From contig NZ_CP066783.1 of the NCBI RefSeq assembly GCF_019186805.1, positions 2,803,501 to 2,867,500 of the forward strand: a stretch of DNA of 64,000 nucleotides, read 5' to 3'. This DNA is from Comamonas fluminis. GTDB lineage: Bacteria; Pseudomonadota; Gammaproteobacteria; Burkholderiales; Burkholderiaceae_C. A program made the translations under genes and the position numbers. The notes beneath the pieces were generated by a model. It saw only the letters and a program-made list of their open reading frames with translations. It searched no databases and was not told where the DNA came from. Shown here in pieces: positions 44,010 to 58,279 of this stretch (positions within the stretch are counted from its first letter, which is position 1; every line of letters begins with the position of its first letter).

Positions 44010-45074
44010 TCAGGCGGCGATCAATCGATCAATGATTCGCCGCGCGCGGTTGGCGCCCACATCCACATGGATGTCGATCATGGATTTGGGACCAAAGCGC
44101 AGCATGTTCTGGTACTGGGCCTCAATCACCACCTTGTCCTCGTCAAAGGTGCGCTCGGTCTGGTCCAGCACCTTGAGCTTTGTCTCTTCCACATTGCTGG
44201 CCGGATTGGTGGCCATGGTCCAGAAATAGTGGCAAGTGTTTTCAGTCTCGGGAGTGATTCCATGAAAACCCCGCATATGGAATCCTCCGCGCTCGGGGTC
44301 GTCCAGTGCATCGGTGTTCTTGTCTACCGCACCCGTCCAGATCAGCAGGTGCGAGACGCGAAACTCGATCTCTTGCCAGCGGTCCACATTGCCCTTGAAA
44401 GGATATGCGGCGGTATATGTGGGAGGCGGAACGGAATCGGGCATGTAACGCACCACCTTCACCGTATCGCCCTCGCTCTCCACCTTCATCTCGGCATTCA
44501 TATGCAGCTTGGCATTGCCGCCAATGGTGTGCAGATGGACATAGCCAAGATGGCTGAGGTCCAGCAAATTATCGTGAATCAGCTGATACGGTGCGTTGTA
44601 GTGATAGACATCACCGCCATAGACGTACTTGGGTGTGCTGTGCACAAAGTAGGAAGGCGCTTCATGCGTAGGCTCCGGGCTATCCGCCTTGCCAAACCAG
44701 ATCCAGACCAGCCCGTCTCGCTCCTGCAGATGGTAGGCCGCGACCTTGGCTTTAGAAGGAATTTTTTCCTGTCCTGGAATCTCAATGCACTGCCCCGCCT
44801 GGTTGTAGAGCAAGCCGTGATAGCCGCAGCGCAGGCCGCAGCTTTCCACCGTTCCTGATGACAGCGGCAATGCACGGTGGCAGCACCGATCCTCCAGCGC
44901 CGCGACGCTGCCGTCTCCCAGACGAAACAGAACAACCGCCTCGCCCAGCAAGGTTCGGCCAACCGGCTTGTCCTTCAACTCCGAAGACAGCGCAGCCACA
45001 TACCACTGGTTCAGCGGAAACTTGTGCTTCACGGGCTCCGCAGATGGTTGAGCTTGGATAGGAATAATATTCAT
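44010..45074 (-). CDS. VanA-type Rieske oxygenase component (vanillate, isovanillate or related aromatic acid)
   Basis: The 354-residue oxygenase subunit performs O-demethylation or hydroxylation of an aromatic acid with electrons from the next protein. The Rieske [2Fe-2S] ligands are in CCHRALPL and CGYHG (C-x-H, then C-x2-H). The mononuclear iron site is DNLLDLSHLGYVH (D/H-rich motif with two His and Asp). Length and pattern match the VanA class of oxygenases. In Comamonas, close relatives act on vanillate, isovanillate or 3-nitrobenzoate; I cannot tell which from sequence. GGGAGACCACG precedes the ATG. It follows the reductase gene by 36 bases, and the cluster is read away from a MarR regulator. 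Confidence 0.85.
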   Translation of the reverse strand: MNIIPIQAQPSAEPVKHKFPLNQWYVAALSSELKDKPVGRTLLGEAVVLFRLGDGSVAALEDRCCHRALPLSSGTVESCGLRCGYHGLLYNQAGQCIEIPGQEKIPSKAKVAAYHLQERDGLVWIWFGKADSPEPTHEAPSYFVHSTPKYVYGGDVYHYNAPYQLIHDNLLDLSHLGYVHLHTIGGNAKLHMNAEMKVESEGDTVKVVRYMPDSVPPPTYTAAYPFKGNVDRWQEIEFRVSHLLIWTGAVDKNTDALDDPERGGFHMRGFHGITPETENTCHYFWTMATNPASNVEETKLKVLDQTERTFDEDKVVIEAQYQNMLRFGPKSMIDIHVDVGANRARRIIDRLIAA

Positions 45075-45110
45075 CGTGGTCTCCCGGGGAAATCTCTGAA
45101 GAAATACGGC

Positions 45111-46058
45111 CTACAGATCCAGCACCAGCAAGGGAGTGCGTGATCGTGAGCAGCAAGGCGTAAAGCAGTCGTTAGCCGCTTTTTCTGCATCGGTCAGGTA
45201 TTGGTCACGGTGATCTGGCGTGCCTTGCAGCACTCGCGTGACGCAGGTGCCGCAAACACCTTGCTCGCAAGACACCGGCACATTCACTCCTGCGCTGTCC
45301 AGAATCTCGAACACCGTTTTGCCAACTGGAATTTCATAGTGCTGTCCCGTGCTGGCCACCTGCACCTGAAAGCTTTGATCGCCCTGCAGCTCAACCACCG
45401 CTGCCGCGAAATACTCCTTGTGCAGGTTTTGTGCATTCCAGCCCTGGTTTGCCGCCGTGCCCAGCACGCAGTCCATAAAGCCGGTGGGCCCGCAGACATA
45501 GACATGGGTGCCGGCTTCAGGTGTGCTCAGCAACTGCGCAACTTCTGCAGCGGTATCGGTGCCGACATGCAGATGGGCGAACTGGCTGAGCGCCGATGAC
45601 TTCAATACGCGCTGGAATGCTGCACGCTCCTGACTGCGGCAGAAGTAATGCAGCTCAAACAACTGCCCCTGAGAAGCCAGAGCCTGCGCCATGCAAACAA
45701 TGGGCGTGATGCCAATGCCGCCAGCAAACAGCAAGTGCTTCTGCGCTGCCGGGGCAAGCTCAAACAGGTTGCGTGGCTCGCTGATCTGCAAAGCCATTCC
45801 AGTCTGCAACGCATGTGCGGCCACCGACCCGCCCCGCGACTGAGGCTCGCGCTGCACGGCGATGGTGTATTGGCCCGGCGAAGACTCGCTCCATGGATGG
45901 CACAGGGAATACTGGCGGACGATTCCTCCCGGCAGATGCACATCGATATGAGCACCTGGAGTGAACGCTGGCAGGCTTGCATTTTTTGAAGAGACGAAGT
46001 CAAAGCTGAGAATGTCCTCAGCCTCCTGTTCACGTCTCTGGACAATGACATCCAACAT
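45111..46058 (-). CDS. VanB-type ferredoxin reductase component
   Basis: The 315-residue electron-transfer partner of the Rieske oxygenase has three domains. The flavin-binding domain carries RQYSLCHPWSESSP (the R-x-Y-S-L motif). The NAD-binding domain contains LFAGGIGITPIVCMA and YVCGPTGFM. The C-terminal plant-type [2Fe-2S] ferredoxin has CEQGVCGTC and a distal Cys in NDCFTPCCS. This order is that of VanB and phthalate oxygenase reductase. It starts the operon. The likely promoter (TTGAGA-N16-TACAAT) lies about 260 bases upstream and overlaps a MarR operator copy. Confidence 0.9.
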   Translation of the reverse strand: MLDVIVQRREQEAEDILSFDFVSSKNASLPAFTPGAHIDVHLPGGIVRQYSLCHPWSESSPGQYTIAVQREPQSRGGSVAAHALQTGMALQISEPRNLFELAPAAQKHLLFAGGIGITPIVCMAQALASQGQLFELHYFCRSQERAAFQRVLKSSALSQFAHLHVGTDTAAEVAQLLSTPEAGTHVYVCGPTGFMDCVLGTAANQGWNAQNLHKEYFAAAVVELQGDQSFQVQVASTGQHYEIPVGKTVFEILDSAGVNVPVSCEQGVCGTCVTRVLQGTPDHRDQYLTDAEKAANDCFTPCCSRSRTPLLVLDL

Positions 46059-46264
46059 GTTCTTGATCGCTTATTCAAGGTTGAGGCTCCCCCTGCCAGC
46101 CAAGTGCCAGCATTTGCATTGCCTCAATAAGGGGGATTGAAAATCGACTGCGCAGCGCCAGCGCTGGCAAAAGATGCTTGAGTACGAGACTCAGAATCGT
46201 GGTGCTGTGTGCACCTGAACGCAGATCACTACAGGTAGCTGCGTCACTTCATCGCCGCATATTT

Positions 46265-46278
46265 GTTGATATCTCAAC
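46265..46278. promoter_or_regulatory. MarR-type operator, copy 1
   Basis: GTTGATATCTCAAC is an inverted repeat (GTTGA-N4-TCAAC) in the region between the divergent reductase and MarR genes. The same sequence, with one centre base changed, recurs 66 bases downstream. Confidence 0.65.
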
Positions 46279-46315
46279 CATATAAGTACAGCTATAGTTC
46301 GTTATCGATAGATGC

Positions 46316-46343
46316 ATTGTAGAAATATCGGTTGATGTCTCAA
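46316..46343 (-). promoter_or_regulatory. Predicted promoter of the Rieske oxygenase operon
   Basis: On the minus strand TTGAGA (46343-46338) and TACAAT (46321-46316) are separated by 16 bases, a good sigma-70 match. The -35 element lies inside operator copy 2, so a bound MarR protein would block it. Confidence 0.5.
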
Positions 46344-46344
46344 C
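46331..46344. promoter_or_regulatory. MarR-type operator, copy 2
   Basis: GTTGATGTCTCAAC repeats copy 1 with one base change. It lies 31 bases before the MarR start codon and overlaps the predicted -35 of the divergent oxygenase operon. It is well placed for control of both directions. Confidence 0.7.
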
Positions 46345-46374
46345 TAATATTTACCCTAAGTCAGCCCAAGCAGC

Positions 46375-46836
46375 ATGAAAAGAAAAAAGAAACTGGATCT
46401 GGAACGTTACGCACCAGCTTTGCTGGCCTTTATTGCAAACAAACTGTCCGCCGGGGCATCCCAGCTGTACCGCGACACTTTCGACGTGGGCATCGTCGAG
46501 TGGCGCGTGCTTTCGATGCTGGCCGTCGAAAGCCATATTCCTGCGCAGCGCATCTGCCAGGTGGTGGGCCTGGACAAAAGCGCCGTCAGCAAATCCGTGC
46601 AGGTGCTGCAAAGCCGTGGCTATGTGCAGTCTGAAGTGGATACCGAAGACGCCAGACGCTACACGCTATGCCTGACCCCTGAGGGCCAGGAGCTGCACGA
46701 CCGCATCTTTGATGTCGCCAAGGAGCGCGAGCGCAGACTGCTGGAAACGCTTTCCCCGCAGGAGGTGGAATCGCTGCTTCACATGCTCAACCGCATTCAC
46801 AAGCAGATCGACCATGTCAATGCTTACCGCCCCTGA
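46375..46836 (+). CDS. MarR-family regulator of the aromatic oxygenase operon
   Basis: A 153-residue winged-helix regulator. The recognition region reads PAQRICQVVGLDKSAVSKSV, followed by SRGYVQSEVDTEDARRYTLC (the wing with D-x-R) and LTPEGQELHD. Helices at both ends (LLAFIANKLSAGASQLYRDT and the C-terminal LLHMLNRIHKQID) would form the dimer interface. It is transcribed away from the Rieske operon across a 316-base region with two copies of an inverted repeat. Like other MarR proteins in aromatic catabolism it probably represses until an aromatic ligand binds. Confidence 0.9.
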   Translation: MKRKKKLDLERYAPALLAFIANKLSAGASQLYRDTFDVGIVEWRVLSMLAVESHIPAQRICQVVGLDKSAVSKSVQVLQSRGYVQSEVDTEDARRYTLCLTPEGQELHDRIFDVAKERERRLLETLSPQEVESLLHMLNRIHKQIDHVNAYRP

Positions 46837-47874: not shown

Positions 47875-48672
47875 CTAGCGCATCACCATGCCGCCATCCA
47901 CCAGCAGCACCTGCCCCGTCATAAAGCTGCTGAGGTCAGACGCCAGAAACAGCACCGGCCCGGCCACATCCTCGGGCCGGGCCAGCCGGCGCAGTGGCGT
48001 AGCCGCCATCAATGATTCGCGAAACGACTCCTTGCTGGTCTGCGTGCCCTGCGTGGGGTACACCAGCCCCGGCGCCACGCAGTTCACGCGTATGCCCACC
48101 GGCCCCAGTTCGCTGGCCAGATTGCGACTAAAGCCAACCAAGGCGGACTTTGCCGTGCTGTAGTCGTGATAGGCCACCACAGGGTGCTCTACCAGATTGC
48201 TCACGATAGTGACAATGCTGCCGCGCGCGCGCTGGCGCATCAGCGGCAGCACTGCACGGCACACATTGAAAGTGGCGCCCACCGCACCATCAAACTGGGA
48301 CTGATAGCGACTCCAGTCCAGCGTCTCAAAATGGCTGCGCTGCTCAGGATCAAAGGTATAGGGACGGAAAGCGTTGTTGACCACAATGTCAATGCCCCCC
48401 GCATCCAGCGCAATGCTGTCCACCATGGCCTGCACGGCTTGTGCATCCCCCACATCGGCCTTGATGGCCCAGGCATCGCCACCTGCATCCTTGCCAGCGT
48501 CCAGACAGGCGGCCACCGCCTGCTCTGCCGCAGCATCGTTGCTCAGATAGTTGATGACGACGGTCGCGCCTTCGCGGGCAAAAGCGGCTGCAATGGCCGC
48601 CCCTATGCCGCGACTGGCACCGGTGACCAGCACCACTTTGCCGTGCAGATTCATGGCCGGTGAAGCAGGCAT
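47875..48672 (-). CDS. Short-chain dehydrogenase/reductase, last gene of the TPP-riboswitch operon
   Basis: A 265-residue FabG-like SDR. The cofactor motif is TGASRGIGAAI, NNAF stands in place of NNAG, and the catalytic residues are in YHDYSTAKSAL (Tyr, Lys) and TIVSNLVEHP (Ser). The end is LLVDGGMVMR. The start is ATG 48672, two bases after the stop of the binding-protein gene, with AGGTG six bases before. In this operon the enzyme could reduce the aldehyde made by the LuxC/LuxE-like pair to an alcohol, or act on a thiamine precursor in the other direction. The substrate is inferred from context only. Confidence 0.88.
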   Translation of the reverse strand: MPASPAMNLHGKVVLVTGASRGIGAAIAAAFAREGATVVINYLSNDAAAEQAVAACLDAGKDAGGDAWAIKADVGDAQAVQAMVDSIALDAGGIDIVVNNAFRPYTFDPEQRSHFETLDWSRYQSQFDGAVGATFNVCRAVLPLMRQRARGSIVTIVSNLVEHPVVAYHDYSTAKSALVGFSRNLASELGPVGIRVNCVAPGLVYPTQGTQTSKESFRESLMAATPLRRLARPEDVAGPVLFLASDLSSFMTGQVLLVDGGMVMR

Positions 48673-48673
48673 A

Positions 48674-49690
48674 TCAAGCACCTGGCAAGAGAGATGTGTT
48701 GACCACCTCTGACACCTTGATCTGGCGCTGCACCATGCCCAGCGCACGGTAGGTATCCGCGCCCTTTTGCAAGGCTGCCAGATCAAAGCCGCCCAGCCCC
48801 TTGCCCTGCACCGCAGGCATGGAAGATGCATTGCGCAGGCGAATCACATCCAGGTTGATGTCGCGCTGCGTGCCGTCAATGGCGCGCTTGCCTGCCAGTG
48901 TCGCGGCTTCTTCGGCATTGGCCATCATCCAGGCTGCACTGTCGCGGTAGCCCTTGAGAAAGGCCTTGAGCAAGTCTTTCTTCTCGCGCAGCGTGTCTTC
49001 GCGCACCACAAACATATCGCTGGAGATATTGAGGTAGTCACGCACCTGCATGATGTTGACCTCACCAATGCCCTTGCGCAGGCCCACGGCCAGCCCGGTA
49101 TCGGTGGCAGCCGTGGCATCCACCTGCCCCTGCATCAGCGGCGCAAAGTTCAGCAAGCCGGTAACGACGATGGTCACGTCCGACTCCTTGAGTCCGGCCT
49201 GATGCAGCATCACCAGCAGGTTCTGGCGCGTGCCGCTGGAGAGGCTATAGACGCCAATCTTCTTGCCCTTGAGGTCTGCGGGCTTGTGAATACCCGCCGA
49301 CTTGAGCGAGACGACGTTGAATACGTTTTGCGGATAGATGTCGTAAATGGCAACCAGCTTCTCGCCCTTGTCCAGCGCCATGAAGAACGAGCCGGGGTCG
49401 GTAAACGCCACATCGGCCTGACCGCTGAGCATATTGCGGATGGCATCACCGCCACCAGCCCCGGGCAAATAGGCCAGCTCTACGCCTTGCGCCTTGAAAA
49501 AGCCTTTGTCCGGCTCCGCAAGAATGTTGGTGATCTCGCTGATGGGCTTGCTCCAGCCTGCAAGGCGAATCTTACCCTGCACAGATGGTGTTGCCTGAGC
49601 CATGCCCGTCAATACCAGAGCAACCATACCCGTGCCAGCACCCAGCAGGCTGCGGCGAGAAAGATGCGAAACCAATTTTTCAGCGTACAT
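48674..49690 (-). CDS. ABC transporter substrate-binding protein (NMT1/THI5-like), thiamine-regulated
   Basis: A 338-residue periplasmic binding protein. SRRSLLGAGTGMVALVLTGM is a twin-arginine-like signal, cut near AQA-TP. The fold shows ISEITNILAEPDKGFFKAQG, YLPGAGGGDAIRNMLSGQAD and ADLKGKKIGVYSLSSGTRQN, matching the NMT1/SsuA group, which includes ThiY (binding thiamine pyrimidine precursors). It is fifth in the operon under the TPP riboswitch, directly after the permease gene, one base apart. A pyrimidine, thiazole or thiamine-derived ligand is likely by context. Confidence 0.88.
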   Translation of the reverse strand: MYAEKLVSHLSRRSLLGAGTGMVALVLTGMAQATPSVQGKIRLAGWSKPISEITNILAEPDKGFFKAQGVELAYLPGAGGGDAIRNMLSGQADVAFTDPGSFFMALDKGEKLVAIYDIYPQNVFNVVSLKSAGIHKPADLKGKKIGVYSLSSGTRQNLLVMLHQAGLKESDVTIVVTGLLNFAPLMQGQVDATAATDTGLAVGLRKGIGEVNIMQVRDYLNISSDMFVVREDTLREKKDLLKAFLKGYRDSAAWMMANAEEAATLAGKRAIDGTQRDINLDVIRLRNASSMPAVQGKGLGGFDLAALQKGADTYRALGMVQRQIKVSEVVNTSLLPGA

Positions 49691-49691
49691 A

Positions 49692-50489
49692 TCAGTGCTT
49701 GCGAGAAGTGAAATCTAAAGAAGAAAAGCCACTGCAATGCCCGCGCAGCAGGCGCTGCTCCAGCAGCAGACATAGCTGGTACAAAAGTAGGCCCAGCACA
49801 GCAATCAGCACCAGCGCAGCGAACATCAAGGTGGTGTCCATCATTCCCTGTGCTGCGATGATGACCGCGCCCAGGCCCTGGCTGGCGCCCATGAACTCGG
49901 CCACCACCACGCCCACCAGCGCCAGCACCACCGCCACACGCAGGCCCGCCAGAATCGCTGGCAACCCCATGGGCAGCTTCAGCCGCAACAAGGTCTGCAG
50001 CCGCGTGGCACCCAGCATGTGAAACAGCTGCAGCCGCTGGGCATCAGCCTGGCGCAGCCCGGTCAATGTGTTTTCCATCAGCGGGAAAAAGCAGATCAGC
50101 GCCGTAATCAGCACCGTGGGCAACATGCCAAAGCCAAACCACAGCACAAACAGCGGCGCCAGCGCCAGCTTAGGTACCACCTGGCTGACCACCACATAGG
50201 GCTTGAACACCCTTTCCGCCCAGGCTGATTCGGCCAGCACCATGCCTGCCAGCAAACCCACAGCACTGCCTGCCGCCAGACCCAGCAGCAAGGCCTGCAG
50301 CGTAGCCATCAGATGCGGCCAGAAGTAGCCTGAGGCCAACCCTTTCCACAGCGCCACCGCCACAGCTGACGGCGCAGGCAGCACCAGGGCCGACAAGCCC
50401 CATTGCCGCACAGCCCACTCCCACAAACCCAGCAGAATCAGGAGCAGCGTGGCCGATACCAGGCGCGCTTTGATGGGTGTGATGCTCAT
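49692..50489 (-). CDS. ABC transporter permease (SsuC/TauC/ThiX-like)
   Basis: A 265-residue inner-membrane permease with six predicted helices. LLILLGLWEWAVRQWG begins helix 1, and the ATPase-coupling loop is MLGATRLQTLLRLKLPMGLP, the EAA-like motif of this family. It overlaps the ATPase gene by four bases (ATGA) and touches the binding-protein gene. With its partners it forms an importer of the ThiXYZ type. Length is usual. Confidence 0.9.
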   Translation of the reverse strand: MSITPIKARLVSATLLLILLGLWEWAVRQWGLSALVLPAPSAVAVALWKGLASGYFWPHLMATLQALLLGLAAGSAVGLLAGMVLAESAWAERVFKPYVVVSQVVPKLALAPLFVLWFGFGMLPTVLITALICFFPLMENTLTGLRQADAQRLQLFHMLGATRLQTLLRLKLPMGLPAILAGLRVAVVLALVGVVVAEFMGASQGLGAVIIAAQGMMDTTLMFAALVLIAVLGLLLYQLCLLLEQRLLRGHCSGFSSLDFTSRKH

Positions 50490-51232
50490 GCGCAGGCCTT
50501 GTCCATGGCGGCACGCACCTGTGCGCAGTAATCATTGAAAACGGCGCCGTGGCGCAGCCCCTGGCTGCGTGGCTCGGGCAATTCAATGGCCCAGTCCTGC
50601 ACAATGCGCCCGCCATGCATCAGCGCAATGCGGTCGCCCAGATAAACGGCCTCGTTGATATCGTGGGTTACAAACAGCACCGTGGTACCACGCTCGCGGC
50701 AACTGCGCAGCAGGTCGTCCTGCAATTCCGCGCGTGTGATGGCATCCAGCGCGGCAAACGGCTCATCCAGCAGCAACAGCGGCGGCTCCAGCATCAAGGC
50801 CCGCGCCAGTGCCACGCGGCTTTGTTGACCGCCGGAAAGCGCTCGCGGATGCTGCCCTGCCATTTCGGCCAGACCCAGCTGCGCCAGCAACTGCCGCGCG
50901 CGCTGCTCATCCTGCGCGGTGGGCTTGCGCTGCAGGGAGACCGGCAGCAGCACATTGGCCAGCACGGTCTGCCAGTCCAGCAAAGTTGGCGCCTGAAACA
51001 TAAAGCCCACTTGCGGCCCCGGCGTGGCCAATGCGCCGCCGTTGAGCGCAATGCGGCCAGCCTGTGGTTTGATAAGGCCTGCCACCAGCTTGAGCAAAGT
51101 CGTTTTGCCGCAGCCGCTGCGCCCCAGCAGGCAGTGCACCTCACCCGCCTGTGCCTGCCAGCTCACGCCATCCACCACGGGCGATCGACCGGGGTAGCTG
51201 AAGCTGAGCGCCTCTATTGCCAGAAAAGCCAT
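50486..51232 (-). CDS. ABC transporter ATPase (SsuB/TauB/ThiZ-like)
   Basis: A 248-residue ATPase. Walker A is GRSGCGKTTLL, the Q-loop lies in FMFQAPTLLDWQTV, the signature is ALSGGQQSRVALARAL and Walker B is LLLLDEPFAALD, with the switch His in VTHDINEA. FMFQ-x-P-x-LL-x-W is typical of the nitrate/sulfonate/thiamine-precursor subgroup. The start is ATG 51232, 16 bases after the luxC-like stop; a longer N-terminal extension reads unlike protein. It energises the import system of this operon. Confidence 0.92.
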   Translation of the reverse strand: MAFLAIEALSFSYPGRSPVVDGVSWQAQAGEVHCLLGRSGCGKTTLLKLVAGLIKPQAGRIALNGGALATPGPQVGFMFQAPTLLDWQTVLANVLLPVSLQRKPTAQDEQRARQLLAQLGLAEMAGQHPRALSGGQQSRVALARALMLEPPLLLLDEPFAALDAITRAELQDDLLRSCRERGTTVLFVTHDINEAVYLGDRIALMHGGRIVQDWAIELPEPRSQGLRHGAVFNDYCAQVRAAMDKACA

Positions 51233-51248
51233 ATCCGTCTGCACCCTG

Positions 51249-52715
51249 TCAATCCGCGTACGCCGCCAGCGGCTGCGCGGCCAGCTCCGCCGATTGTTCG
51301 ATCTCCACCATGCGTACCAGATCCAGCAGGCTAAAGCGCCCATCGTGGTGCCAGGCGGCTTCGGGCATGCTCATGGAACCAATGGCGGCAATGCGCGTGA
51401 CACCAGCAGCGCCCAGTTGGCTGGCCAGCGCATACAGCCGCTCCGGGCTGGCCGCCAGCCCGGCCGTCTGCAGAAAATCACGCTGCTGCGCGACCACCGC
51501 AATCACAGACTCCAGACTCTGCACAGCCACCACACTGATACTGCGGTGCAGGGCCGTCGGGGTCAGCGGTGGAATGCCATCAGCCCCGGCGTCATCACAA
51601 TACGCCACGCTCCAGGCCGCATCGGCCGGGCCGATCAAGGAATGGGACGGCTGCGCCCACTCCACACTTTGCTGCCAGCGCGCCACGGCCGCGCCCTCTT
51701 CCAGCTCCAGCGCACGGCGTGGAAAGCGCCGCTGCAGATTGGTCAGCTCCGCCGCCAGATAGTCTGCAAACGCACGTGGCGACACTGGCGCGCCACGCTC
51801 CACATAGAACACATGGGGTGAATAGCAGCCTTGCTGGTCATAGCGCATCACATCCCAGGCCGCCAGCCGGGCCAGCGCTGGCGCCTTGAGGCTATCCAGC
51901 GCCTCTTTGGCCACCATGCCAAAGCCCAGCTTGTGCCCATGGGGCAGAAAGCGCGTAGTCACCGGCAGGCGCTGACGCAGCGCATCCAGCGTGTGGTTGC
52001 CGCCATAGGCCAGCACGGTATCAGCCTGGGCATAGAGCGCATCGGCCTCCTCACCACCAGCCCCCCGCCACCAGACCACGGCCAGACAATCGGCCAGCGG
52101 CGGGTGCACCTCGGCCAGCAGCCGGGCAAACCAGCCTGCAAACAAGGGCTCGGCACTGGCCAGCTTGCCAATGGCGGGCGCCTTGACCAGCAGGCCGCAG
52201 ATCAAGCTCCATAGCGACAGCGCAGGCACATTGCCCGCCCAGCTATGCACCAGCAGATTCGGGCCAAAGGCCCGAACTGCACCGCCCTTGGCTGCCGGCT
52301 GAAAGCCGTCCAGCACCGCTGGGTTGGCAAAATCTTCTGCCACAAACCGGCGCAGTTGCGGCGCACGAAAAGTCTTGAAAAATCCCGTCAGCCCCAGGCG
52401 CACCATGTCTGCGTCATAGCTGCTGACCACAGGCAGCCAGGCCTCTGCCTGCTGACGATAAATGTCGTTTCTATCCAGCAAGCGCGCTATGGCTCGGTCT
52501 ATTGCATCGATGATTTCCGCCACGGGCATGGTTCGCAGATGCTTGTCTGCAGCAGCGCGCACATGCTGCGCCAGCCGCTGCATCTGCGCGCTGCCGAGCA
52601 CGGGCACAGACACTTCCAGCCGCACGCGGCCCTGCTCAAAAGGCAGCACCTGCCACTGCACGTCCTCGTCTTTGATGCCCGGCAGATAGCCCGCCCGAAT
52701 GCGCTCGACTTTCAT
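51249..52715 (-). CDS. LuxC-like acyl reductase in a TPP-riboswitch operon
   Basis: A 488-residue member of the LuxC acyl-CoA/acyl-enzyme reductase family. It is related to aldehyde dehydrogenases and reduces a thioester to an aldehyde with NADPH. The likely catalytic Cys is Cys297 in YDQQGCYSPHVFYVE, the block that carries the active Cys in LuxC. FGPNLLVHSWAGNVPALSLW is the conserved nucleotide-region sequence. The start at ATG 52715 lies within a few bases of the luxE-like stop. No luciferase genes are near. Together with the luxE-like gene it would convert a carboxylic acid to an aldehyde. The thiamine context suggests an oxidised thiamine fragment and not a fatty acid; that is inference. 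Confidence 0.85.
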   Translation of the reverse strand: MKVERIRAGYLPGIKDEDVQWQVLPFEQGRVRLEVSVPVLGSAQMQRLAQHVRAAADKHLRTMPVAEIIDAIDRAIARLLDRNDIYRQQAEAWLPVVSSYDADMVRLGLTGFFKTFRAPQLRRFVAEDFANPAVLDGFQPAAKGGAVRAFGPNLLVHSWAGNVPALSLWSLICGLLVKAPAIGKLASAEPLFAGWFARLLAEVHPPLADCLAVVWWRGAGGEEADALYAQADTVLAYGGNHTLDALRQRLPVTTRFLPHGHKLGFGMVAKEALDSLKAPALARLAAWDVMRYDQQGCYSPHVFYVERGAPVSPRAFADYLAAELTNLQRRFPRRALELEEGAAVARWQQSVEWAQPSHSLIGPADAAWSVAYCDDAGADGIPPLTPTALHRSISVVAVQSLESVIAVVAQQRDFLQTAGLAASPERLYALASQLGAAGVTRIAAIGSMSMPEAAWHHDGRFSLLDLVRMVEIEQSAELAAQPLAAYAD

Positions 52716-52720
52716 ACCGC

Positions 52721-53815
52721 TCAAGCTCTGGCAGCCTGAACAAACTCATCCACGGCCAATGAGCAGCCCTTGGCCGCAGCGCCTTCTGCGCGGCCCAGCA
52801 GCAAGAAACCGCTGGCTTCATCGGCGCCCGCCCACAGGCCCACGTCTTCGGTCAGGATGGTGGTGACGGCGTTGTAATTGGCCAGATCACAGTGCACCAG
52901 AATGCCGCGCTCGCCCGCAGGCACATCGCGGCCGGTAATCGGCTCGACCAGACGCGAGCGAATCCAGTGCGGGCCGGATTTGATGGATGGCAATGCCTCG
53001 TTGCCGCTGTCGTAGAACTGCGTGCTCAGTTCCGTCATGCCATACATATTGATGCACAGCGAGCGAGGCACGCCAAACAGGGCCGACAGATCGCTGTAAA
53101 ACTCTTCAAGCGGAAGCTCACGCGACTGGCCCTTGTAGCCGCCGGTATCCAGAATTCGGCTACCTGCGGGCAACTTGAAGCTGCGGCCCATCTCACGCAG
53201 CGCGTCCATCACATGCACAAGGCTAAAACTGGCGCCCAGCAGGGCAAACGGCTGGCCACTGTCTTCTGACGCCTGCAGCGCCGCGCACAGGCCGGGCATA
53301 TCCAACCCTTCAGGCGTGAGGTAATAGCGGCTGTCAGGCGTACCAAATTCCGATTTGGCCAGCGCCAGATAGTGGGCCAGCGAAGAGTTCGGCATGGCCT
53401 GCTCGTCCGGGAAGAGGACACCCATCTCCATGCGCTGCACGCCTTGCATGAAACGCTGCGAAAAATAGCGCTTCATCGACAGGTCATACACCTCCAGCGC
53501 CGGGTGAAAATGCCGCCCGCGCGCAGCCCGTCCGGTGGTGCCGCTGGTCATGAAAACACGCTCGGCAGGCGATGCGGGTTCGCTGCGCAACTCCATGGCC
53601 TTGAAGGCATCGATGGGCACGGCAGGAATATCACGCCAGGACTTCACATTGCGCAGACTGGCGCCACGGCGCTGGCAAAAGCTGCGAAACGGTGCGTTGT
53701 TTTCGTACTGGTGCGCAAACAGTCGCAAAGCCATTGCGTTGAACTGTTCATCCGTACATCCATCCTGCGCAATAAAACCCAGCAGGTCGGCGACCAGGGC
53801 AGCAGCCTTGTCCAT
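52721..53815 (-). CDS. LuxE-like acyl-protein synthetase in a TPP-riboswitch operon
   Basis: A 364-residue acid-activating enzyme. FMTSGTTGRAARGRHFH (residues 88-104) is the adenylation motif of the LuxE/ANL group. NMYGMTELSTQFYD is the aromatic/acidic block that completes the AMP site. Cys351, 13 residues from the end in KGCSLAVDEF, stands where LuxE proteins have the Cys that accepts the acyl group. So it should activate an acid with ATP and hand it to the LuxC-like partner. I choose ATG 53815 because AAGGA stands five bases before; that site lies inside a hairpin after the TPP riboswitch. It is the first gene of the operon. Confidence 0.85.
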   Translation of the reverse strand: MDKAAALVADLLGFIAQDGCTDEQFNAMALRLFAHQYENNAPFRSFCQRRGASLRNVKSWRDIPAVPIDAFKAMELRSEPASPAERVFMTSGTTGRAARGRHFHPALEVYDLSMKRYFSQRFMQGVQRMEMGVLFPDEQAMPNSSLAHYLALAKSEFGTPDSRYYLTPEGLDMPGLCAALQASEDSGQPFALLGASFSLVHVMDALREMGRSFKLPAGSRILDTGGYKGQSRELPLEEFYSDLSALFGVPRSLCINMYGMTELSTQFYDSGNEALPSIKSGPHWIRSRLVEPITGRDVPAGERGILVHCDLANYNAVTTILTEDVGLWAGADEASGFLLLGRAEGAAAKGCSLAVDEFVQAARA

Positions 53816-53820
53816 GAGAT

Positions 53821-53853
53821 TCCTTCGAGAGCTGAAATGTTCTGCTCCGAAGG
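53821..53853 (-). promoter_or_regulatory. Hairpin that masks the ribosome site of the luxE-like gene
   Basis: On the minus strand CCTTCGGAGC pairs with GCTC-T-CGAAGG (one bulge), and the second arm contains the GAAGGA ribosome site of the gene at 53815. A second hairpin GCTGCC-CTGT-GGCAGC lies just before it. This is the expected form of a translation-controlling expression platform behind the riboswitch. Confidence 0.6.
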
Positions 53854-53894
53854 CTCCTGCCATGCTGCCACAGGGCAGCCATCGAGGAATGCAA

Positions 53895-53967
53895 GCTCTT
53901 CTTCCGCCGGCATGACCCGGGTCAAGTTCACGGGTTTAGATCTCAGCACTGGCGTGCACCCCGGAGC
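53895..53967 (-). promoter_or_regulatory. TPP riboswitch (THI element)
   Basis: The minus strand carries all conserved parts of the thiamine diphosphate riboswitch in order: GCTCCGGGGTGC, then GTGCTGAGATC, then AACCCGTGAACTTGACCCGGGTCATGCC (listed here as ACCCGTGAACTTGACCCGG and TCATGCCGGCGGA), closed by GAGC, which pairs with the starting GCTC to form P1. The gap to the first start codon (53815) is 80 bases and holds an RBS-masking hairpin. When thiamine diphosphate is plentiful the operon should be off. This is strong evidence that the luxE-luxC-ABC-SDR operon serves thiamine supply. Confidence 0.95.
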
Positions 53968-53973
53968 GCGGCC

Positions 53974-53979
53974 ATCATA
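53974..53979 (-). promoter_or_regulatory. Predicted -10 element of the thiamine-controlled operon
   Basis: TATGAT on the minus strand lies seven bases before the first riboswitch base, at the expected distance from a transcript starting at P1. No strong -35 is visible 17 bases further; CTGATT is the best candidate. Confidence 0.45.
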
Positions 53980-54237: not shown

Positions 54238-54281
54238 GAAGCGCTTATTCATCAAGCGCATACAGCTATATTTTTCATAGT
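54238..54281. repeat. Dispersed intergenic element, copy 5
   Basis: GAAGCGCTTATTCATCAAGC with the following GCATACAGCTATATTTTTCAT contains GCGCTT/AAGCGC as an inverted repeat and ends with AGCTAT. It is the clearest copy of the element and ends just before the deaminase start codon. Confidence 0.55.
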
Positions 54282-54282
54282 C

Positions 54283-54756
54283 ATGTCAAGCACACCCCTC
54301 TACCAGCAGGCGCTGATGCGTCAAGCCGTCGATCTGGCCCACACCAACCGCCTGCAAGGCGGCCGCCCTTTTGGCGCCGTCCTGGCTCAAGGCGATCAGG
54401 TCATTGCCACAGGCGTGAACAACATCATCGCCAGCCACGACCCCAGCGCCCATGCAGAGATGGAGGCCATACGCGCGGGCACACAAAAACGCGCCAATCC
54501 CAGTCTGGCGGGCCTGAGCATTTACGCCAGCGGCCACCCTTGCCCCATGTGCCTGGCGGCACTGGTCATGAATGGGGCCGAAGAGGTATTTTTCGCTTTC
54601 GACAATGCCGATGCGCAGCCCTACGGCCTGTCCAGCGAAGGCACATACCAGCGCCTGCGTCTGTCGCTCTCGCCTGCACCTCTGCCCATTACCCGTATTG
54701 ACACGGGCATTACGGCAGAACAGCTTTACGGCAACGCCCCCTGGCATCAGGGTTGA
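54283..54756 (+). CDS. Nucleoside/base deaminase (CMP/dCMP deaminase fold, guanine deaminase-like)
   Basis: A 157-residue zinc-dependent deaminase. The zinc and catalytic residues are in SAHAEMEAIRAG (His, Glu) and ASGHPCPMCLAALV (two Cys). GRPFGAVLAQGDQVIATGVN is the typical N-terminal strand pair. This pattern matches guanine deaminase GuaD and related nucleoside deaminases; tRNA adenosine deaminase TadA is less likely from the C-terminal part. ATG 54283 is the start with the full fold; upstream codons run through a repeat element. It is read away from the thiamine-controlled operon. A part in pyrimidine salvage for thiamine is possible but not shown. Confidence 0.88.
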   Translation: MSSTPLYQQALMRQAVDLAHTNRLQGGRPFGAVLAQGDQVIATGVNNIIASHDPSAHAEMEAIRAGTQKRANPSLAGLSIYASGHPCPMCLAALVMNGAEEVFFAFDNADAQPYGLSSEGTYQRLRLSLSPAPLPITRIDTGITAEQLYGNAPWHQG

Positions 54757-54836
54757 GCGCAGCGCTTGCAAAGCCATAACAACCAGGCATTGAAGCCTGC
54801 GCTGTGCAGAACACTGTGCAGCAACGGCCTGTTTTC

Positions 54837-56108
54837 ATGACGATACCCACACTCTCTTCCACAAACCGCATCCCCGCCTGGCTATGGCTATGCGTGGTGG
54901 TACTGATCACCATCAACCTGCGCCCTTTTCTCACCGCACCCGGCCCGCTGGGCTATGCCATTCAGCAAGCTACGGGCATGGACTTGCGCAGCTTTTCCTG
55001 GCTCACGCTGCTGCCCATGGCGCTGATGGGGATTGGCGGCTGGCTTGCGCCTTCTGCCCTGCTGCGCCTGGGCGCTCGCAATGCCATCTGCGGCTCTTTA
55101 CTGCTGATTGCACTGGGTTGCGCACTGCGCCTGATGCACGCTGGTGCGGCCACCGGCAGCCTGCTGATTGCCACGGCTGGCCTGTGCGGCGCGGGCGTTG
55201 CCCTGGTGCAAAGCATCGTGCCGGGGCTCATCAAACGCCAGTCTCCACATAACATCGCCCCCATGATGGGCCTTTATTCAGCGGCGCTGATGGGGGGCGG
55301 CGCACTCAGCGCCCAGCTTTCGCCGCTGTCCATGCAATGGGGGCTGAACTGGCAGCAAGCTCTGGCCATCTGGGCCATTCCAGTGTTGCTGGCACTGCCA
55401 CTGGCCTGGTATGTGCTGACGCTGATGGGCAGCCCTGCTAGCACACAGCCATCATCCACCACAGCCCCCACATCCACATCCACATCCACATCCGCACCAG
55501 TGCCCGTAGCCAGCAGCGACACCGGCTGGCTGCTGCGCCGCCGCCGCACCTGGCTTCTGCTCATCAGCTTTGGCCTGATGAATGGCGGTTACGCATCCAC
55601 CGTCGCCTGGCTTGCGCCCTTCTACCAGACCCATGGCTGGTCAGCCACGCAAAGTGGCTCGCTGCTGGCGATTTTGTCGATTGCACAAGCTGTATCCGCC
55701 CTGGCCATGCCCGCCTTTGCGCGCCGTAATGTGGACCGCCGCCCCTGGGTCATTCTGGCGCTGCTGCTGCAAATCATCGGCTTTACCGGTCTGGCGCTGT
55801 GGCCAGATGCCATGCCCAAGCTCAACGCCATCGTTCTGGGCCTGGGCCTGGGTGGCTGCTTTTCCCTGTACATGCTGGTGGCGCTGGACCATCTGCCCAT
55901 TTCCACCCAAGCCGGTGCGCTCAACTCCCTCATGCAGGGCGGCGGTTTTATTCTTGCGGCGCTGGCTCCGCTGGTCATGGCACAACTGCACCAGATCAGC
56001 GGTCACTGGGCTACAGGCTGGCTGTACCAGGCCGGCATCGCCGCACTGGTCTGCGTGCTGGTTACACGCTTCGATCCCAAGGGCTATGCACAAGTGCTGG
56101 CGCGATAA
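54837..56108 (+). CDS. MFS transporter, CynX/NimT family
   Basis: A 423-residue, 12-helix transporter. ITINLRPFLTAPGPLGYAI is the signature of the CynX (cyanate)/2-nitroimidazole transporter group (NLRP near the first helix). The central loop is unusual: a Ser/Thr/Pro-rich linker coded by a CACATC microsatellite (about 55468-55493). QAGALNSLMQGGGFILAAL is the conserved helix 10-11 area. It lies 80 bases after the deaminase gene and may be co-transcribed, so it may carry a base or amide. Start choice between 54804 (GTG) and 54837 (ATG) is uncertain, as neither has a good ribosome site. Confidence 0.85.
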   Translation: MTIPTLSSTNRIPAWLWLCVVVLITINLRPFLTAPGPLGYAIQQATGMDLRSFSWLTLLPMALMGIGGWLAPSALLRLGARNAICGSLLLIALGCALRLMHAGAATGSLLIATAGLCGAGVALVQSIVPGLIKRQSPHNIAPMMGLYSAALMGGGALSAQLSPLSMQWGLNWQQALAIWAIPVLLALPLAWYVLTLMGSPASTQPSSTTAPTSTSTSTSAPVPVASSDTGWLLRRRRTWLLLISFGLMNGGYASTVAWLAPFYQTHGWSATQSGSLLAILSIAQAVSALAMPAFARRNVDRRPWVILALLLQIIGFTGLALWPDAMPKLNAIVLGLGLGGCFSLYMLVALDHLPISTQAGALNSLMQGGGFILAALAPLVMAQLHQISGHWATGWLYQAGIAALVCVLVTRFDPKGYAQVLAR

Positions 56109-56156: not shown

Positions 56157-56200
56157 TTTCCTTGTATTTTGTAAGATTATTCTTACAAAATACAAGGAAA
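56157..56200. repeat. Perfect 19-bp AT-rich inverted repeat at the edge of the pilin cluster
   Basis: TTTCCTTGTATTTTGTAAG pairs exactly with CTTACAAAATACAAGGAAA across the loop ATTATT. It lies 49 bases after the transporter stop. It may end transcription of the upstream gene, but the low GC and lack of a clear T tract also fit a regulator site or a trace of DNA integration. Confidence 0.6.
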
Positions 56201-56292
56201 ACGAATGGCTGCACAAGAAAGCTTTACGTTAGCTTTACGAGGCATAGAAAAGATACTGAGTTCCATTGCAACTACACTACCGTATCAAAAGG

Positions 56293-56322
56293 TTGCTTTT
56301 CTTTACCAAACAAATCTAGAAT
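56293..56322 (+). promoter_or_regulatory. Possible promoter of the minor pilin cluster
   Basis: TTGCTT and TAGAAT are 18 bases apart, about 60 bases before the first pilin start. The match is fair, and the surroundings are AT-rich. Confidence 0.35.
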
Positions 56323-56356
56323 TCAACCAAAATACTCTATCGCATTCCAAATCACT

Positions 56357-56375
56357 CTCGGAATTGATTTCCGAG
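56357..56375 (+). promoter_or_regulatory. Leader hairpin overlapping the fimT ribosome site
   Basis: CTCGGAA pairs with TTCCGAG over a five-base loop, and the last G belongs to the GAGGAGG ribosome site of the first pilin gene. Pairing could lower its translation. Confidence 0.4.
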
Positions 56376-56383
56376 GAGGCTCC

Positions 56384-56932
56384 ATGCCAATTCAATCAAG
56401 ACACCAATCCGGCTTTACATTGATTGAATTAATCACGGTCATCTCACTTATAGCCATTGCCGCTGTGTGGGCGGCTCCCAGCATGGCTTCATTGATCCGC
56501 TCCAACCGCGCCAGTGGCGAGATCAATCAAGTTGGCGCCTCCATCCGATATTCAAAATCAGAGGCTATTAAACGAGGCCTGAATGTCATCATATGCCCAT
56601 CCTCCGATTCTGCGAGCTGCTCAAGCAGCAACAACTGGGGAAATGGATGGATTATCTATGTGGACAGCAATTCAAATGGCTCACTCGATAGCGGCGAGCC
56701 AATTTTAAAAACAGAACAAAAATTTCAGACGAATGACCAATTGCTAGCCTCTGGAAATGCATCCAATCTTAAATTCAACAGAGATGGCTTTGCTTTTGAT
56801 TTACCCAGTTCTGCATCACTGACCCTGACACTCACCACAACCCCACAAGATGCATCAGCACAGCGTTGTTTAGTTATTGGTTTGTCTGGAAGCTTCAATA
56901 TTCTAAAACAGGGAGCCAGTGGCTGTGCGTAA
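56384..56932 (+). CDS. fimT: Type IV minor pilin, GspH/FimT family
   Basis: A 182-residue pre-pilin. After a short leader comes SGFTLIELITVISLIAIAAV, with the class III signal cut after Gly and Glu5 present, then a GspH/FimT globular domain ending with a Cys pair (RCLVIGLSGSFNILKQGASGCA, of which RCLVIG and SGCA are the key parts). The start at ATG 56384 follows GAGGAGG by six bases. It begins the cluster fimT-pilV-pilW-pilX-pilY1-pilE, whose products prime pilus assembly in the inner membrane. Codon use and GC are below those of the genes to the left. Confidence 0.93.
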   Translation: MPIQSRHQSGFTLIELITVISLIAIAAVWAAPSMASLIRSNRASGEINQVGASIRYSKSEAIKRGLNVIICPSSDSASCSSSNNWGNGWIIYVDSNSNGSLDSGEPILKTEQKFQTNDQLLASGNASNLKFNRDGFAFDLPSSASLTLTLTTTPQDASAQRCLVIGLSGSFNILKQGASGCA

Positions 56933-57494
56933 ATCACGAAAATTATCTGCAGGCTTCTCTTTACTGGAGGTATTGATATCTCTGGTCATCATTTCTCTTG
57001 GAATACTAGGCATAACCGGCTTGCTCATCAAAGGCATGAGTAATGCGAAATCAGCCAACCAACGCGCTGTTGCAGCCATGGAGGCCAGCAGTCTGGCTGC
57101 CTCCATGTACACCAACAGAGCCTTCTGGGCATCAACAACTACGCCCATCTCTTTTTCCACGCAATGGTCTGCCAGCAAACCTACAGTCGCAAGCTCTGTT
57201 GGCATCAGCTTCATTGATCCAGCATCCTGTGATGATGTCAGCAGCAAATGCAGCTCAGCACAAATTGCAGGGGCTGATGCACAGGGGTGGGCAAACAGCA
57301 TCAACAACGCCCTGGCCAATGGTGCAAGCACCATCAGCTGCAACCCTAGAACGGATGGCGCATTCAAAATTAATAGCTGTGACATCACGCTTTCATGGAC
57401 TGAGAAGTTCGTGGATACCAGCAACGGCAGCACCACAAAATCCTCTTCATCCACCAGTGGCACACGCTCCTACACCTTGCATGTTGAGCCATGA
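56925..57494 (+). CDS. pilV: Type IV minor pilin PilV
   Basis: A 189-residue pre-pilin with SAGFSLLEVLISLVIISLGI, Glu5 present, typical of PilV. The globular part is Ser/Thr/Ala-rich, with paired Cys. I prefer GTG 56925, nine bases after GGGAG; the GTG two codons earlier is only three bases from it. The start lies inside the end of fimT, and the gene overlaps pilW by four bases. PilV is part of the pilus tip initiation complex with PilW, PilX and PilY1. Confidence 0.9.
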   Translation: MRKSRKLSAGFSLLEVLISLVIISLGILGITGLLIKGMSNAKSANQRAVAAMEASSLAASMYTNRAFWASTTTPISFSTQWSASKPTVASSVGISFIDPASCDDVSSKCSSAQIAGADAQGWANSINNALANGASTISCNPRTDGAFKINSCDITLSWTEKFVDTSNGSTTKSSSSTSGTRSYTLHVEP

Positions 57495-58279
57495 AGAAAA
57501 AAATTCACACTCACATCCACAGCCAAAAACAGAATGGATTCACGCTGATTGAATTCATGATTGCAATGGCTATGAGCCTTTTTTGCGTACTGGCCATGAC
57601 CGGGATATATTTAAGCATCAAAAATGGTTTTTTTGCGCAAGGAAATATATCATCCATGCAAGAGTCCGAGCGTCTTGCATTAACCTCTTTGAACAATACC
57701 ATTCAGCTTTCTGGTTACTACCTTAATCCACAAAACTCCAATACACAAACAGCAGCCTTCCCTGTGGATTCTGCCAATGGATTTGCAGCAGGCCAGTACA
57801 TCTCATCAAGCGCAACAGCCGGAAAAAAAAATACAGTCTCTGTAAAATTTCAAACAGCGCCGAATGATGGCCTGCTAACTTGTATAGGAACTGGAAACAC
57901 TGGCACGGCGAATACGGTTTTCACCAATACATTCACCTTTACCGCAAACAGTGCTCAAACAGGGACTTATCTGCTTCAGTGCACTGTTTATGACGACATT
58001 AGCAAAAAATCTGTTCAAGCAACTCTGGCAGAGAATATTTCAAGCTTCAATATTGCCTACGGTGTTGATTCCGATAGCGACGGGAATATCGACTACTACA
58101 CTACAGCAATTGCCCCTTTGAATGCGCTATGGCTGAATGTTAAGTCTGTGCGCATATCCATTGCATTTGCTGACATGGTTAACACCACCGCTGGAAACAC
58201 ACCAAAATCTGCACCTGCAATCATTCAATACATCAATCTGATGAACAATTACACTGCCAGAAATGATGCAACATCCTGA
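57491..58279 (+). CDS. pilW: Type IV minor pilin PilW
   Basis: A 262-residue pre-pilin. NGFTLIEFMIAMAMSLFCVL is the leader junction and N-terminal helix. The domain includes SGYYLNPQNSNT and YGVDSDSDGNIDYYTTA, where the latter D-x-D-x-D-x-N-x-D stretch resembles a calcium-binding loop and is typical of PilW. It overlaps pilV by four bases (ATGA) and pilX by 17 bases. Confidence 0.9.
   Translation: MKKKIHTHIHSQKQNGFTLIEFMIAMAMSLFCVLAMTGIYLSIKNGFFAQGNISSMQESERLALTSLNNTIQLSGYYLNPQNSNTQTAAFPVDSANGFAAGQYISSSATAGKKNTVSVKFQTAPNDGLLTCIGTGNTGTANTVFTNTFTFTANSAQTGTYLLQCTVYDDISKKSVQATLAENISSFNIAYGVDSDSDGNIDYYTTAIAPLNALWLNVKSVRISIAFADMVNTTAGNTPKSAPAIIQYINLMNNYTARNDATS

Follow-up and report, generated by a model that had tools for sequence, protein, structure and literature searches.

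A TPP riboswitch-headed operon of LuxE/LuxC-like enzymes in Comamonas fluminis with a probable role in salvage of the pyrimidine half of vitamin B1

Known salvage of the pyrimidine half of vitamin B1 (thiamine) begins with 4-amino-5-hydroxymethyl-2-methylpyrimidine (HMP), its aminomethyl analogue (AmMP) or the formylated form of the latter (FAMP). The FAMP/AmMP route of ThiXYZ and TenA/YlmB needs no reduction, and the known versions of the ThiM-ThiD-ThiE salvage operons begin with two alcohols, HMP and 5-(2-hydroxyethyl)-4-methylthiazole (HET). Two other described systems bear on this work, the LuxE-LuxC pair of luminous bacteria (structure 7xc6) and the carboxylic acid reductases, each of which is a single multidomain protein with a phosphopantetheine arm. 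Here, we describe a six-gene operon of Comamonas fluminis, located in a stretch of 64,000 nucleotides of contig NZ_CP066783.1 (positions 2,803,501 to 2,867,500, hereafter the window), which is headed by a thiamine pyrophosphate (TPP) riboswitch and encodes relatives of LuxE and LuxC, an ATP-binding cassette (ABC) importer and a short-chain dehydrogenase/reductase (SDR) (Table 1).

This operon resembles ThiXYZ with TenA/YlmB in its TPP-riboswitch control, its ABC importer with a ThiY-like binding protein and the predicted delivery of HMP to ThiD, but it adds an acid-activating enzyme and two reductases. With the luminous bacteria it shares both enzyme families, the adjacency of the two genes and the conserved acyl-accepting cysteines; unlike theirs, its six genes include no luxAB or luxD, are under TPP control, have an importer and an SDR as partners and miss the luminescence equivalog cut-offs. 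The ATP- and NADPH-dependent conversion of acid to aldehyde, as we know it from the carboxylic acid reductases, would also be the chemistry of the window operon, whereas the latter uses two separate proteins of other families. Finally, in two Bacillota genomes these genes adjoin or sit within thiM-thiD-thiE, although the window-type operon is proposed to start from an acid.

The operon probably serves to salvage the pyrimidine half of vitamin B1 and is probably repressed by TPP. At low TPP the riboswitch would permit expression, and the importer, a ThiXYZ relative, would take up a thiamine pyrimidine in oxidised form, 4-amino-2-methylpyrimidine-5-carboxylate being the most likely one. LuxE would adenylate the carboxylate with ATP and then hold the acyl group as a thioester on its own C351; LuxC would accept it on C297 and reduce it with NADPH to the aldehyde, which the SDR would convert into the alcohol HMP. 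ThiD would then form HMP pyrophosphate for ThiE, and the operon would take the place of de novo HMP synthesis where ThiC has been lost. Substrate, reaction order, cofactor and direction of the SDR are predicted. Judged by the genomic context in three proteobacterial classes and in the Bacillota, the view of the operon as an import-and-reduction system for a thiamine precursor is strongly supported. That much of the salvage proposed in the initial annotation is upheld by context, while its chemistry stays a prediction. The basis in hand comprises the riboswitch, the gene families, the conserved cysteines, the cross-phylum operon, the linkage to thiD, thiMDE and ThiOGE-like genes, and the ThiC-less carriers.

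We rate the proposed chemistry as new and riboswitch-controlled pyrimidine salvage as known. The initial annotation knew of no described pathway of this composition, and literature searches likewise found no published description of such an operon, with an earlier listing in a TPP regulon table possible. A THI-regulated gene reported as SDR-like, oarX, may be this SDR. No such operon appeared in the parts consulted of PMC3766115 (on TPP regulons), PMC2211319 (on riboswitches in metagenomes), PMC545781, PMC5627462 (on Paenibacillus thiamin genes) and PMC10881298 (on B1 vitamers); in the consulted part of PMC2211319, twelve genes under TPP control are noted for which databases contain no similar genes.

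Riboswitch and proteins of the operon

The match to the TPP riboswitch family RF00059 spans the whole covariance model and encloses the complete element that had been placed at 53895-53967 in the initial annotation. Together with the family matches of the genes, which overlap or are spaced by 1-16 bases, it confirms the tight, riboswitch-headed six-gene operon proposed there. A default Rfam scan of the window reported no TPP riboswitch, since the element scores 0.3 bits below the curated gathering cut-off of 54.3. It was also recovered by the whole-genome search (G000:C2:2857382-2857473), which placed other TPP elements of the genome upstream of thiC (54.7 bits), upstream of a ThiO-like gene named by inspection, with thiD divergent (53.9 bits), and upstream of a CytX-like permease gene (34.9 bits), whose product scored 236.6 bits against a cut-off of 309.85. 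The elements at 54.7 and 53.9 bits indicate that the threshold is borderline, not the site. TPP binding and switching of expression by the window element are predicted from its sequence.

The likelier start of luxE is the ATG at 53815, which follows a GAAGGA; the ATG at 53863 is possible. A Vienna fold of the leader (z -1.38) did not recover the aptamer and was not relied on. In this fold the GAAGG ahead of the ATG at 53815 was paired with an upstream CCUUC, a modelled pairing that would be compatible with translational control and was not relied on either.

The LuxE-like and LuxC-like proteins were matched to LuxE (7xc6_E, E 1.7e-20) and LuxC (7xc6_A, E 1.9e-13) of the fatty acid reductase complex. 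A comparison of 13 orthologues from Proteobacteria and close Bacillota, without the distant Bacillota L181-L189, found the motif MTSGT and C351 of the LuxE-like protein invariant, the latter within a KGCSL shared with the end of 7xc6 LuxE. C297 of the LuxC-like protein, in YDQQGCYS aligned with YDQQACFS of 7xc6, was invariant as well. In line with the lux literature, we take both to be the catalytic, acyl-carrying cysteines. A structure model of LuxC, with a predicted local distance difference test score of 73.0 and values below 50 near the cysteine (residues 296-299), was not used.

The binding protein has the ThiY fold, and a thiamin-bound protein (4nmy) was its second best structural match; it is proposed to bind the pyrimidine acid. 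Its alignment included four distant Bacillota rows and was made without L094 (an out-of-frame row) and L083 (a cut row). The large protein searches gave the best 120 of 1969 and of 3441 matches, all near relatives, and are not used as evidence. Sources label some of the binding protein's close relatives (P0158, P0180, P0223 and others) as 'Thiamine pyrimidine synthase' or 'Riboflavin-binding protein RibY'.

Recurrence of the riboswitch and the operon

The LuxC protein was searched for in named genomes, and the best 80 of 110 loci, from alpha-, beta- and gammaproteobacteria and Bacillota, were compared. The same six genes in the same order were found in 75 of them; four of the remaining five end at contig ends (L054, L067, L083 and L087), and the fifth, from Pantoea dispersa (L108, 6694-10239), has riboswitch, luxE, luxC and SDR without the importer. 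A TPP motif was also present in 75/80 loci at 0.9-2.6 kb upstream of luxC. The motif pattern is loose, with false matches inside genes (L091, L076), so only matches at this distance were counted. Three motif-less loci begin too near a contig end (L054, L093, L114). The other two belong to metagenome-assembled genomes (MAGs), one named Proteobacteria (L091) and one Alphaproteobacteria (L092); no motif was found in them, nor any TPP element by Rfam at E 0.1, and both genomes have TPP elements elsewhere. In both, the operon sits behind a gene that by eye resembles protein-isoaspartate methyltransferase.

Additional carriers were sought in two groups of genomes. LuxC was found in 33/60 genomes of the genus of Ramlibacter paludis and, at E<=1e-60, in 20/397 genomes from the order of Oceanobacillus salinisoli, and 50 of these carriers (32/33 and 18/20, respectively) were scanned. 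A TPP element on the same strand, less than 6 kb upstream of luxC, was found in 46/50. Among the other four, G551 has a TPP element by cmscan and G533 by motif only, G175 adjoins a contig end, and the matches listed for G232 include no such element; G191 and G192, outside the 50, have one too. The riboswitch-operon arrangement, in 75/80 loci and 46/50 further carriers, exceeds chance. Among relatives of the window genome, LuxC was matched in 37/149, including three distant homologues (G027, G110 and G121, 29-30% identity) that were used as a control. No TPP element was found on the contig bearing LuxC in these three genomes; therefore, the link belongs to this LuxC group and not to PF05893 at large. 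The co-occurrence of luxC/luxE with TPP riboswitches that had been suggested as a check was thus found in relatives, across three proteobacterial classes and in Bacillota, and the opposite outcome, that homologous operons elsewhere never sit behind TPP riboswitches, does not hold.

Rfam scores were compared in several sets of loci. In the second set 6/15 passed the curated cut-off, namely one Comamonas-type locus and those of Azospirillum, Bosea, Pantoea, Erwinia and Oceanobacillus, with Domibacillus L110 falling below it, and in the third set 7/11 passed. All 15 Comamonas-type loci given to the search matched the whole TPP model at E 0.01 (48.6-54.1 bits), and two Domibacillus loci carry the element at 53.9 and 53.1 bits. 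One record named Pantoea sp. 18069 (L043) holds the operon with a LuxC 79% identical to that of the window; its coordinates equal those of G040, placed in the genus of the window, and the Pantoea name looks wrong.

The Bacillota carriers point to the core of the operon. Of the 20, 11 are close (49-53% LuxC identity to the window protein) and nine distant (37-40%). The importer is kept in 4/9 distant carriers, with Rfam TPP scores of 70.3-77.4 bits. In the other five, luxE-luxC-SDR occurs without it and a permease gene lies ahead of luxE, with a TPP element upstream in 5/5. The permeases tested (L190, L192, L193) matched PF00860 at 227.7-272.3 bits and scored above the NCBIfam cut-off for the NCS2_1 purine/pyrimidine permease and below that for the xanthine permease PbuX; by visual comparison those of L191 and L194 look similar. 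The short loci L180 and L185-L189 themselves showed no TPP element, and the genome search located theirs further upstream. The SDR stays with luxE-luxC where the importer is absent (L108) or replaced (Bacillota). In the loci read, the importer can thus be exchanged, unlike the three enzymes, which marks luxE-luxC-SDR as the core.

Linkage to thiamine genes and the likely substrate

In seven named loci (L082, L083, L086, L087, L088, L090 and L106) thiD lies between the riboswitch and luxE, and L093 has the cut end of a thiD in the same place; the thiD of L083 was verified by family (TIGR00097, 308.7 bits against a cut-off of 204.95). Among the 33 carriers of the R. paludis genus, thiD was directly ahead of luxE in 30/30 loci returned. 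A pyrimidine-branch thi gene in the same TPP-controlled row is thus found in relatives; in the window genome thiD lies elsewhere. The operon of L114 adjoins thiD, thiG and ThiO- and ThiE-like genes, and thiG lies within the fetched stretch of L106, with a ThiO-like gene, and of L090, with a ThiE-like gene, both named by inspection. In Bacillota, G542 has the order TPP-thiM-thiD-thiE-permease-luxE-luxC-SDR, with a second TPP element ahead of thiW within the same 15 kb; its thiM and thiE (locus L194) were named by likeness to the genes of L192, which were tested with hidden Markov models (HMMs). In G562 TPP-thiM-thiD-thiE neighbours TPP-permease-luxE-luxC-SDR. Two consecutive TPP riboswitches with the thiC of the same genome (G194) between them adjoin the operon at L113:4521-6813.

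ThiC was sought in 49 carriers from among the 80 loci, L108 not included, and no match was obtained in 10. ThiG was found in 9/10 of these (cut by the contig end in G175), the only one without it being a 3.0 Mb MAG (G170); two of the ten, R. paludis (L090) and O. salinisoli (L112), are not marked as MAGs. R. paludis lacks a TenA match besides ThiC. No ThiC match was found either in 5/20 Bacillota carriers, G542 among them. As far as tested, cells with ThiG and without ThiC lack the pyrimidine and not the thiazole. Of the three acids that the initial annotation had named as candidates, the pyrimidine acid is favoured; linkage to thiD and a genotype with ThiG but no ThiC agree less well with thiamine acetic acid or the thiazole acid.

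Several observations weigh against pyrimidine salvage as the role of the operon. A ThiC match is present in 39/49 carriers (a fragmentary one in G174), and 5/10 ThiC-less ones have TenA, an enzyme that also serves pyrimidine salvage. Since 8/10 ThiC-less carriers are MAGs, the gene may simply be missing from the assemblies. The window genome has both ThiC and ThiG, so there the operon supplements de novo synthesis and does not replace it. Complementarity of ThiC and operon was considered for the R. paludis genus and rejected: ThiC was not found in 27/33 carriers but also not in 19/27 non-carriers, and its loss is thus nearly as common without the operon. In L091 and L092 no riboswitch was detected ahead of the six genes, and the Rfam curated cut-off was passed by none of 20 Comamonas-type loci in one set and by only 1/9 in the second. 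Enzyme activities and the role in growth are predictions from genes. That the pyrimidine 5-carboxylate is a common environmental vitamer, recycled to HMP by LuxE, LuxC and SDR in an undescribed and widespread route that stands in for the radical-SAM enzyme ThiC as main pyrimidine source in ThiC-less bacteria such as R. paludis, is in our judgement an evenly balanced proposal. The window genome also encodes three TenA-family proteins (G000:C2:522241, 1138718 and 3562112).

A different pyrimidine acid derived from thiamine, with a longer or substituted side chain, could instead be converted into HMP or into another product acceptable to ThiD. The thiD linkage, the ThiC-less and ThiG-positive carriers, the nucleobase-type permease and the ThiY-like binding protein fit any pyrimidine acid. 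However, among acids that give HMP by two two-electron reductions the plain carboxylate is the simplest, and it is already a described thiamine metabolite, reported in rat urine according to the reference list of PMC7780320 (Neal and Pearson 1964), and we consider a substituted acid unlikely.

Import of thiamine acetic acid and its reduction to thiamine appears distinctly improbable. This acid has the right oxidation state, and the second rank of thiamin-bound 4nmy among the structural matches would suit it, but thiamine as the product would need a thiamine kinase and not the ThiD encoded ahead of luxE in the R. paludis genus. Whole-thiamine salvage would also make the ThiG kept by ThiC-less carriers needless, and a nucleobase-type permease would be an odd importer for this acid. 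Reduction of 4-methylthiazole-5-acetic acid to HET is very hard to sustain: thiM adjoins the genes in two Bacillota loci (L192, HMM-tested, and L194, by likeness), yet the neighbouring kinase in the R. paludis genus is ThiD, 9/10 ThiC-less carriers retain ThiG, and G542 has its separate TPP-controlled thiW, a gene for which the part consulted of PMC5627462 uses the term thiazole transporter. A LuxE/LuxC pair acting as a fatty acid or general acid reductase, with a riboswitch position unrelated to thiamine precursors, would agree with the family names and with the solved relatives, which are long-chain fatty acid enzymes, but is scarcely credible given that TPP control and thi-gene linkage persist across Proteobacteria and Bacillota even where LuxC identity falls to 37-40%, and that the NCBIfam luminescence equivalog scores fall far short (74.9 against 550 and 73.9 against 750).

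If the pyrimidine salvage reading is true, it adds a reductive salvage route to vitamin B1 metabolism and gives LuxE/LuxC enzymes a role outside lipid chemistry. We know of no use of the pyrimidine acid, which we regarded as a dead-end product of thiamine breakdown. Auxotrophy predictions would change as well, as a ThiC-less genome may still make B1 from this acid. The same reading predicts a vitamer missing from at least one B1 survey, as the table in the part consulted of PMC10881298 gives HMP, AmMP and FAMP as pyrimidine vitamers and not the acid.

Coordinates and neighbouring genes

Table 1. Riboswitch and genes of the operon, in positions of the window.
Feature	Position	Strand	Match
TPP riboswitch aptamer (RF00059)	53882-53973	minus	cmscan 54.0 bits, E 7.3e-10, model 1-105/105
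LuxE-like acyl-AMP/acyl-protein synthetase	52721-53815	minus	PF04443 75.4 bits (cut-off 24.9)
LuxC-like acyl reductase	51249-52715	minus	PF05893 255.3 bits (cut-off 21)
ABC importer ATPase	50486-51232	minus	PF00005 118.1 bits
ABC importer permease	49692-50489	minus	PF00528 105.8 bits
NMT1/THI5-type periplasmic binding protein, ThiY/THI5-like fold	48674-49690	minus	PF09084 170.5 bits
SDR	47875-48672	minus	PF13561 198.6 bits

Adjoining the riboswitch, a nucleoside-deaminase-like gene and a CynX-like permease gene are divergently arranged (54271-56108, plus strand). The deaminase (54271-54756) and the permease (from 54804) were considered as parts of the operon and left out, because they stand beside it in only 1/80 loci (L038) besides its own locus (L002). 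Beyond them, a run of prepilin-like proteins with GFTLIE-type motifs (56162-58279, plus strand) corresponds by eye to type IV pilus minor pilins. On the other side of the operon, at 44010-46836, a Rieske oxygenase and ferredoxin-type reductase pair, by eye vanillate-demethylase-like, is accompanied by a divergent MarR-like regulator.

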